Shown in pieces: positions 1 to 23,841 of a stretch of 64,000 bases of DNA. The stretch is from Modestobacter sp. Leaf380. Lineage in GTDB: Bacteria; Actinomycetota; Actinomycetes; Mycobacteriales; Geodermatophilaceae. The notes below the pieces were generated by a model. That model made no database searches, was not told the origin of the DNA, and was given only the letters and a program-made list of their open reading frames with translations. Location of the stretch: the NCBI RefSeq assembly GCF_001424485.1, contig NZ_LMQC01000025.1, forward strand, positions 1 through 64,000. Reading direction: 5' to 3'. The position numbers were made by a program, and so were the translations under genes. Every line of letters starts with the position of its first letter. The first letter of the stretch is position 1.

Positions 1-1356
1 CGAGGATGGCGCGGGTGACCGCGACCTGTTCGGTGAGGACGCCGCCGATGACGGCCTGGGTCTCGTTGATGGTGTCGATGACGGTGCTGATGGCGGCGAG
101 GGTGGCCACGACGGCGTCGACCTGGTCCTGGATGGCGGTGATCTTGGCGGTGACGTCGGTGGTGGCCACGGCGGTCTCGCGGGCCAGTTCCTTGACCTCG
201 TTGGCCACGACGGCGAACCCGCGGCCGGCCTCGCCGGCGCGGGCGGCCTCGATGGTGGCGTTCAACGCGAGCAGGTTGGTCTGGGCGGCGATGGTCCCGA
301 TGGTCTGGGCGACCTGACCGACCTGCTGGCTGGACTCACCCAGGGCGGCGACGACGGTGTTGGCCTGCTCGGCCAGGTCCCGGCCCTGGGAGGCCACGGT
401 GGTCGCGGAGAGCACGTTGCGCTCGACCTCCTCGATGGAGGTGACCAGTTCCCGGCCGGCGGTGGCCAGCTGCTCGGTGGCGGCGATGCGGTCCAGGGCG
501 GCACCGAGCAGGTAGGCGGTGTTGCGCAGCGCGGCTTCCCGGCCCGGGGACATCACCAGGGTCCAAGTGGCGAAGAAGTCCATGGTGCCGATGACCTGCC
601 CACCGGAGGTGATGGGCAGGCACACCCCGGACTTCACCCCGGCGCGCTGGGCGGCGGGGGCGCGCACGCAGTCGGTGAGCTCGCCCAGGTCGGGCACGAA
701 GACCATGTCGCGGCGCTGCCACGCCCGCCCCGACAGCCCCACACCGGGGGCGAAGGTCGCGGCCAGGGTGACGGCGCGGAACTCCGGGCCGGCGTCCCCG
801 GACTCCCGCTCGAACCGCAACACCCCTGCCGCGGGGTCGACCCGCCAGAACGAGCCGTAGGCCCAGCCGAAGTCGGTGCGGATGGTGTCCAGGGCGGCGG
901 CCAGCGCGGTGTCGGCGTCGGTGGCGGCGGTCAGCTGCTGCAGCACCTCGGTGACCGCGGCGACGTCCTGGGCGGACTTGGCCTGCGCCTCACCGGCGGC
1001 CAGGCGGGCCAGCGCCTGGGACACCAGGGTCCCGATCGCACGCAGGGTGGCCAGCCGGCGCGGTGCGAGCTCCAGGGTCTCGGTGGTGAAGAAGTCCATC
1101 GTCCCCACCACCGCACCGGCGGCCACGATCGGGAAGCACACCCCCGACCGCACCCCCACCCGCTGCGCCACCGGGGCCCGCACGCAGTCGCGCACCTGCC
1201 CCAGGTCCGGCACGAACACCAGGTCGGCCGTGGCCCACGCGCGCCCCGACAGACCCACACCCCGGGCGAACGTCGCGGTCGCCGTGACCCGCGCGAACTC
1301 CTCGCTCACCGACCCCGACTCCGAGGAGAAGTGCAACAGCCCATCGGCCGGATCGA
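1..1356 (-). pseudogene. Chemoreceptor-like gene, 3' fragment: GAF copy, second GAF, methyl-accepting signalling domain (runs off window)
   Basis: Continuation of the same gene, in the frame that resumes in the first repeat copy. It reads part of GAF1, then a linker ([20 protein letters not shown]), a second GAF with the same core motifs ([35 protein letters not shown]), and a coiled-coil methyl-accepting domain with the family hairpin signature [20 protein letters not shown] followed by [15 protein letters not shown] near bases 190-300. No membrane segment is seen, so the intact protein would be a cytoplasmic receptor or a chemotaxis-like signalling scaffold that talks to CheA/CheW-type partners. 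The C-terminus lies beyond base 1. No start codon with a ribosome site is seen for this half alone. Confidence 0.7.
1073..1356. repeat. 284-bp direct repeat, copy A (inside chemoreceptor gene)
   Basis: Bases 1073-1356 match 1404-1687 at 283 of 284 positions. The one difference is C at 1199 versus A at 1530, a synonymous glycine codon change on the coding strand. The unit covers most of a GAF domain. The period is 331 bases, not a multiple of three, so the repeat breaks the reading frame. Confidence 0.95.
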
Positions 1357-1403
1357 GGCACCGGACCAGGAGGAACCATGCCCAACCCGTTCGTGAAGTT
1401 CTG
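1357..1403 (+). other. 47-bp foreign insert resembling the 5' end of a pspA/IM30 gene with its ribosome site
   Basis: Between the two GAF repeat copies are 47 bases that do not belong to the receptor. On the plus strand they read AGGAGG, four bases, then ATG and codons for MPNPFVKF. PspA/IM30 family proteins of actinobacteria typically start with M-(A/P)-N-P-F-V-K, so this looks like the ribosome site and first eight codons of a pspA-like gene, lying antisense to the receptor. After this the sequence is GAF repeat again. The match is short, so the origin is an inference. Confidence 0.6.
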
Positions 1404-1687
1404 CAGGGTCTCGGTGGTGAAGAAGTCCATCGTCCCCACCACCGCACCGGCGGCCACGATCGGGAAGCACACCCCCGACCGCACCCCCACCCGCTGCGCC
1501 ACCGGGGCCCGCACGCAGTCGCGCACCTGACCCAGGTCCGGCACGAACACCAGGTCGGCCGTGGCCCACGCGCGCCCCGACAGACCCACACCCCGGGCGA
1601 ACGTCGCGGTCGCCGTGACCCGCGCGAACTCCTCGCTCACCGACCCCGACTCCGAGGAGAAGTGCAACAGCCCATCGGCCGGATCGA
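1404..1687. repeat. 284-bp direct repeat, copy B (original GAF1 location)
   Basis: Second copy of the 284-bp unit. It is flanked on its right by sequence that continues the GAF domain in frame to the gene start, so this copy sits in the native N-terminal context, while copy A is joined in frame to the downstream linker. Each copy therefore keeps one native junction. Confidence 0.95.
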
Positions 1688-1977
1688 TGGTCCAGTGCGA
1701 CCCGTAGGCCCACCCGAACCCCTCCCGGACAGCGGACAACGCAGCCCGCACCGCCTCCTGGCTGGACGAGACACCCGCCAACGCCGACACCACCGACGTC
1801 ACCGCATCGACGTCGGCCTCCGCGTCGGCGGTGAGGGCGGCGGCGTGGGAACGGGACAGGGCGGATCGCACGTGGGCCCTCCAGGGGCTGTACGGAGCGC
1901 GGGCCGCGGCTTCGACCGTCTCCTGTCTCTCCCTTCGGCGGCCCAGCCAGCCACTGAAGCGGTGGTTGAACACCGGA

Positions 1978-2730
1978 TCAGTCTGAATCAGCCGTTTCCG
2001 GAACGGGCCCATCCGGGCGGGAGAAGACGTACTCGGCGAACACCCCGTCGGCGGAGTACTCCGCGGTCTCCAGCACCAGGCCGGCCCGCTCCGCGAGAGC
2101 CTCGAACAGCCAGGTGAACGTCGAGTGCTCGTCGCGGACGTGCTCCTCGAAGTCCGCGCGACTCCACCCGTCGCCGCCGTCGGGACCGCCGGTGGCGCAC
2201 CACGCCTCCAGCCGCTCCTCGGCCTCGTGCACCTCGAAGGACCAGACGACGTCCCAGACCCGGAGCACCCCGCCGGGGCGCAGGGCGTCCCGGATGCGGG
2301 CCAGTGCGACGCCCTTCCAGAAGTCGGGCAGGTGGTGCATCGCGTACCGGCTGTAGACGACGTCGGCCGGCGGACCCTGGTGCTGGTAGTCCAGGAACCC
2401 GGCCTGCACGACGGTGACGTTCTCCAGCCCGGACCGCCTCAGCTTGGCCTCCAGCTCGGCGATCATCACCGGGGAGACGTCGACGGCGACCACCCGCCCG
2501 CACACCCGCGCCGCCGCGAGCGCGAACTGACCGGTGCCCGTGCCGAGCTCCACGACCACCGAATCGCCGTCCATGCCCCAACGCTGCAGCAGCGCCACCT
2601 CACGGTCGGGGGCGGCGTCCTCGATGGCGTCGTAGCGCGCGACGTGCCCGGCGTCGAGGTTCTCCCGGCCCGCGCTGGCGACCTGGTCCAGCAGCCACCC
2701 CGGACGGCCTGGTGCGTCTGCTGCTGTCAT
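1978..2730 (-). CDS. Class I SAM-dependent methyltransferase
   Basis: A 250-residue cytoplasmic methyltransferase of unknown substrate. The SAM-binding glycine-rich loop ELGTGTGQ is at residues 61-68, the acidic residue after strand 2 is in VAVDVS (81-86), and the motif ADVVYSRYAMHHLPDFWK fits small-molecule UbiE/Methyltransf_25-like enzymes. The ATG at 2730 is preferred over the upstream in-frame ATG at 2826 because the added 32 residues look non-coding and because a TACGGT -10 box ends six bases before the 2730 ATG, which suggests a leaderless transcript. It sits upstream of the broken receptor gene on the same strand with a gap of about 107 bases; no functional link is evident. Confidence 0.85.
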   Translation of the reverse strand: MTAADAPGRPGWLLDQVASAGRENLDAGHVARYDAIEDAAPDREVALLQRWGMDGDSVVVELGTGTGQFALAAARVCGRVVAVDVSPVMIAELEAKLRRSGLENVTVVQAGFLDYQHQGPPADVVYSRYAMHHLPDFWKGVALARIRDALRPGGVLRVWDVVWSFEVHEAEERLEAWCATGGPDGGDGWSRADFEEHVRDEHSTFTWLFEALAERAGLVLETAEYSADGVFAEYVFSRPDGPVPETADSD

Positions 2731-23539: not shown

Positions 23540-23636
23540 GCCCGCACGACCCCGGTCACCGAGTGACCACCGGCGCCCGTGCGCGCCCGGACTCCTCCCC
23601 CCGGACCCCAGCCCGGCCAGGGCGCAGCGAGCTCCC

Positions 23637-23841
23637 GATGTCACATCGAGGGGTCCGGCGCCGGCGAGGAGCCGCTCGATGTGACATCCAGCGGTCTCGT
23701 GCCGGGCAAGGGCTGCTCGATGTGACATCGAGCGGTCCGGTGCCGGCGAAGGGCTGCTCGATGTGACATCGAGCGGTCTCGTGCCGGGCAAGGGCTGCTC
23801 GATGTGACATCGAGCGGTCTCGTGCCGGGGAGGGGCGGCAG
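23637..23841. repeat. Array of five 41-bp tandem repeats, each carrying a 17-bp palindrome
   Basis: The core GATGTGACATC (GATGTCACATC in the first unit) recurs at 23637, 23678, 23719, 23760 and 23801, exactly 41 bases apart. The typical unit is a palindrome CTCGATGTGACATCGAG (8-base arms around one base) plus a 24-base segment reading CGGTCTCGTGCCGGGCAAGGGCTG with small variants. Units 3-5 are nearly identical, unit 1 is most diverged. It fills the 308-base gap between the convergent chelatase and rhodanese genes, and every unit can form a hairpin. It is not a CRISPR because the intervening segments repeat too. Confidence 0.93.

Follow-up and report, generated by a model that had tools for sequence, protein, structure and literature searches.

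A frame-broken, partly doubled chemoreceptor gene in the draft genome of Modestobacter sp. Leaf380 is very probably an assembly artefact at a collapsed two-copy gene

Introduction

Unmerged contig overlaps and collapsed repeats occur in draft assemblies, and tandem duplications that bear filler DNA can arise by non-homologous end joining or template switching. The direct repeat in a chemoreceptor gene of Modestobacter sp. Leaf380 shares features with both. As with unmerged overlaps and collapsed repeats, direct copies stand at the join of overlapping contigs in a gene with a near-identical second copy, N or filler separates the copies, and overlaps near the word size of the assembly graph are found elsewhere in the assembly. 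Unlike the usual unmerged overlaps, however, the overlap here is 284 bases rather than ~99, and it encloses a 46-base exact filler from the start of a distant gene. As with a filler-bearing tandem duplication, direct copies flank a short templated insert, but the units come from two paralogues and similar joins recur, some of them holding N, which is impossible in real DNA. The gene pieces carry two GAF domains and an MCP signalling domain, as in GAF-GAF methyl-accepting chemotaxis proteins; in contrast to the single open frame at seven loci of six Klenkia species, the frame is interrupted in the present assembly.

The draft assembly consists of 25 contigs with 4,764,686 bases, and the window, i.e. 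the whole stretch of 64,000 bases analysed here, covers bases 1-64000 of contig C25. If the contig numbers were sorted as text, contig sizes would roughly follow a size ranking, and the exceptions, including C25, C6, C12 and C10, would suggest later joins. A pipeline of Velvet, wgsim and Allpaths-LG has been used for another actinobacterium (PMC5217420), and the genus Klenkia is the subject of another paper (PMC5742155); no tie of either to the present assembly was found. The start of C22, the ends of C5, C9, C11 and C14, and the starts of C7 and C12 all lie within one repeated element, perhaps an insertion sequence, which breaks the assembly.

Results

Structure of the repeat in the receptor gene

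The receptor gene lies on the minus strand at the very start of the contig, and the following features were assigned in the window.

1-99, minus strand: contig start, inside the 3' end of the receptor gene; overlaps C3 and C14 exactly and marks a two-copy fork
2-1356, minus strand: receptor 3' body, GAF-GAF-MCP, with GAF_2 twice and MCPsignal; read as the middles of two near-identical genes collapsed into one
1073-1357, minus strand: copy 1, consisting of the unit and one further base, with the letters of the C6 paralogue
1358-1403, plus strand: filler, identical at 46 of 46 bases to the region around the pspA start codon on C7
1404-1687, minus strand: second copy of the unit (copy 2; A at 1530), running into the gene start of C25 itself
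1688-2012, minus strand: receptor 5' part (gene A); mismatched with the start of the C6 gene at 1688 and 1725, the two sequences parting beyond about 1823

The original prediction described a 284-base unit at 1073-1356 that recurs at 1404-1687 with one synonymous difference, and this was confirmed: the period is 331, the intervening bases 1357-1403 number 47, and 1070-1356 aligns with 1401-1687 at 99%. The sole difference between the units, C at 1199 and A at 1530, changes GGG to GGT on the minus strand and is silent, both being glycine codons. The predicted loss of the frame by the 331-base shift (3 x 110 + 1) was also borne out, as no open frame crosses the join. The predicted double-GAF chemoreceptor identity agrees with the domains in the piece at 2-1591, where PF13185 (GAF_2; 2.1e-30) matches in two stretches and PF00015 (MCPsignal) matches with 3.2e-27; a third copy of the unit, 70% alike, lies at 554-840 within the second GAF domain of the gene. 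No N or other unresolved base is present at the join, and no N occurs anywhere in the window. Elsewhere in the window, a 41-base unit whose core is nearly palindromic (TCGATGTGACATCGA) occurs about five times in tandem at 23636-23834, an arrangement that looks natural.

Two near-identical receptor genes with one assembled middle

The start of the receptor gene is present twice in the assembly, at 1688-2012 of C25 and on C6, and its end is also present twice, on C3 and C14, whereas the middle was assembled only once. C3:1-99 and C14:1-98 are exactly identical to positions 1-99 and 1-98 of the window, and past this overlap the two contigs diverge, with different last residues and different neighbouring sequence. 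At the other side, C6:22-328 matches 1517-1823 of the window at 304 of 307 positions and diverges after that. A third gene, on C3, is the best other long match to 1-1072 (83% identity over 3-1063) among the best 40 of 1215 candidates, the higher identities among these listed matches being short pieces only. Thus, with two 5' ends, two 3' ends and more gene ends than assembled middles, the genome most simply contains two near-identical receptor genes whose middles have collapsed, and it is possible that a recent duplication or gene conversion lies behind the two.

The two units of the repeat can be assigned to these two genes. Copy 1 equals C6:22-194 at all 173 bases over 1186-1358, including C 1199 and G 1357, the base at 1358 fitting the filler as well. 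Gene A has A (1530) and T (1688) where the C6 version has C and G. At the start of C6 itself, a loop-back of 21 bases has the A version first and the C version second. Since copy 1 carries the C6 letters and copy 2 the gene-A letters, the silent difference is a difference between paralogues, and the duplicate does not derive from one and the same gene copy. The suggestion that this difference speaks slightly against an assembly copy therefore fails, and the difference was discarded as a sign of a real event.

The filler is a copy of the pspA start

The intervening 47 bases had been called unrelated, and of this description only the length holds: 1358-1403 is identical to C7:21821-21866 (46/46), namely to the 20 bases that precede the ATG of a PspA/IM30 gene, the pspA of this genome, and the 26 that begin with the ATG; G 1357 still belongs to the receptor in its C6 version. 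In each of eight Klenkia genomes, the filler match sits away from the receptor match (among the matches listed, with 34 candidates per genome scored); the identity of the matching place as pspA was checked in the own genome.

We compared nine loci, seven from six Klenkia species and the two own paralogues, with the interrupted gene. No 20-base piece of the filler was found in any of the nine, each of which has the matching receptor region in a single open frame. In seven of them the 450-residue part aligns over its full length; it aligns from residue 33 on in L082 and at 48% identity in L011. That the 47 bases might be a normal linker in an intact paralogue was thereby ruled out, 0 of 9 loci carrying the filler. 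Conserved gene order was sought in the same nine loci, each 6 to 8 kb long, and no match was found to the proteins neighbouring the own gene copies (a methyltransferase and a lipoprotein next to gene A, the product of the LacI-type gene on C6, and those of the next genes on C3 and C14), so that synteny could not be used.

The same loci bear on the proposal that recombination between the direct copies makes a reversible on/off switch of the receptor. Frame-breaking direct repeats of 284 bases could in principle recombine. However, recombination would be expected to delete one unit together with the filler and leave no way back. The filler is found at 0 of 7 loci of the six Klenkia species, all seven of which have the matching region within a single open frame, and the repeat is itself unlikely to be real. 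No recurrent repeat structure was seen at this locus in the relatives, and we regard a switch as extremely improbable.

Similar joins elsewhere in the assembly

We scanned seven own contigs or parts of them (811,996 bases), picked for their bearing on the tangles seen rather than at random, for loop-backs, i.e. direct copies of at least 75 bases within 1.5 kb, and found 27 including the receptor repeat, several of which overlap one another. They are distributed as follows.

C12, 1-200 kb: 19
C25: 3
C23: 2
C15: 2
C6: 1
C3, 1-100 kb: 0
C14: 0

In contrast, two related genomes, which were perhaps assembled by other methods, gave no loop-back in the 400,000 bases scanned (300 kb of G004 and 100 kb of G008). 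The same pattern thus occurs at other sites and is absent from the related assemblies. In eight of the 27, the unit measures 97-102 bases and the offset differs from it by two bases at most, as expected for overlaps placed one after the other; the loop-backs near C12:177 kb, including two of these eight, seem however to belong to a coding stretch that is repetitive by nature. N stands between the copies at four loop-backs (C15:2858, C25:187767, C25:148851 and C12:85009); N alone is not specific, as 100 kb of G008 holds four N runs and no loop-back.

Contig ends show a related pattern. A tandem copy of the first bases of the contig was found at 4 of 45 ends (C6, C12, C23 and C4, the last a simple repeat) compared with 60 of 63,500 window positions; these 45 come from 50 ends, of which three were not included and two were unreadable. 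The loop-back at the C12 start is absent from six other copies of that end, and at the C23 start all eight related genomes match only from base 15 on, with a single unit in the one inspected by eye. The gene near C12:84 kb (L094, ~83.8-85.3 kb) has five backward jumps, of 231, 99, 325, 33 and 106 bases, relative to the one-contig relative G004, in which no such repeats were found in the 6 kb read. Two different 3' continuations of this gene, on C12 and C23, have 98 exactly identical bases in common, from which we infer a second two-copy gene; two further jumps lie in C23:1-3016 (L095).

These observations weigh upon the possibility that the receptor repeat is a real and recent tandem duplication in one receptor copy, repaired by end joining or template switching with a captured paralogue fragment and the 46 pspA bases. 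A filler copied exactly from elsewhere in the own genome, junctions with at most about one base of microhomology by eye, and two non-identical units would all fit such an event. Against it, the difference between the units is the paralogue difference, similar structures are present at other genes, including a sigma-factor gene and some with N at the join, and there is no loop-back in the 400 kb of the two relatives. A real duplication is thus very unlikely. Neither of the two biological readings of the original prediction, recent inactivation by end joining and reversible phase switching, is supported, given that loop-backs recur in the examined part of the assembly, four with N, and number 0 in the 400 kb of control sequence.

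A sigma-factor gene with the closest parallel

The closest parallel lies on the same contig as the receptor join. At C25:148695-148966, a 115-base unit (148695-148809) is repeated at +157 and the frame is broken. The filler consists of 41 bases, identical at all 41 positions to C19:541479-541519, plus one N. The gene pieces match an RpoD/SigA-type sigma factor (NF004560; 3.4e-126 and 1.7e-111), each scoring under the whole-protein cut-off, as pieces would be expected to. Both sides of this filler align in all eight Klenkia genomes (one of them 73% complete) and no match passes through it, the furthest going 13 bases in. A primary sigma factor is essential. In the sigma relative on C6, 84 bases loop back at +85 and the frame is broken; other relatives, on C5, C20 and C4, have open frames, so that lethality of losing the broken gene does not follow. 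The 41 C19 bases in this join may stem from a wrongly filled gap or from a chimeric molecule. A biological account of the joins together seems to us very unlikely: one receptor gene would have been broken by a 331-base templated insertion made up of a paralogue fragment and the pspA start, and this would be one of several such events, the strain being unusually prone to template switching at its duplicated genes.

Discussion

Judged from the assembled contigs alone, the broken and partly doubled receptor gene is very probably an assembly artefact at a collapsed two-copy gene. Mis-assembly had been one option of the original prediction, and it is this option that gains support from the two starts, two ends and one middle of the gene, the paralogue-specific units, the identity of the filler, and the similar joins elsewhere in the assembly. 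In the proposed course of events, the genome would have two near-identical GAF-GAF-MCP chemoreceptor genes, whose middles would have been merged by an assembly working with overlaps near 99 bases. Two pieces ending inside the shared stretch would then have been joined with their 284-base overlap left unmerged, the left piece ending in the C6-type version and the right piece starting with the gene-A version, with 46 pspA-identical bases placed in the join. The size of this overlap, 284 rather than the usual ~99 bases, and the lack of N at the window join count against an artefact. From the contigs we infer which kind of assembly step was responsible, the role of a chimeric read, and the intactness of both genes in the living cell.

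The pspA bases in the receptor join count against an artefact as well. A wrong gap fill and a chimeric molecule are both possible sources; the filler suggests a molecule or a local assembly that contained both junctions. In a variant of the artefact, the fault would not be solely one of joining or gap filling: the assembler may have taken in a library molecule that was chimeric, or else a rare variant among the cells. One molecule with both junctions would account for the exact pspA segment, and likewise for the C19 segment at the sigma gene, but the N at other joins and the unmerged overlaps of ~99 bases point to the joining step. We consider this variant possible, though rather unlikely, and a chimeric molecule and a joining error may also have acted together.

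The same kind of search would be a cheap error filter for other drafts, the signal being exact direct copies that measure ~99 bases or, where a gene has two copies, more than that. Claims on frame-broken or tandemly duplicated genes that are based on the present assembly need reads. For the biology of this bacterium, a gene inactivation that would probably be false is struck off the list.
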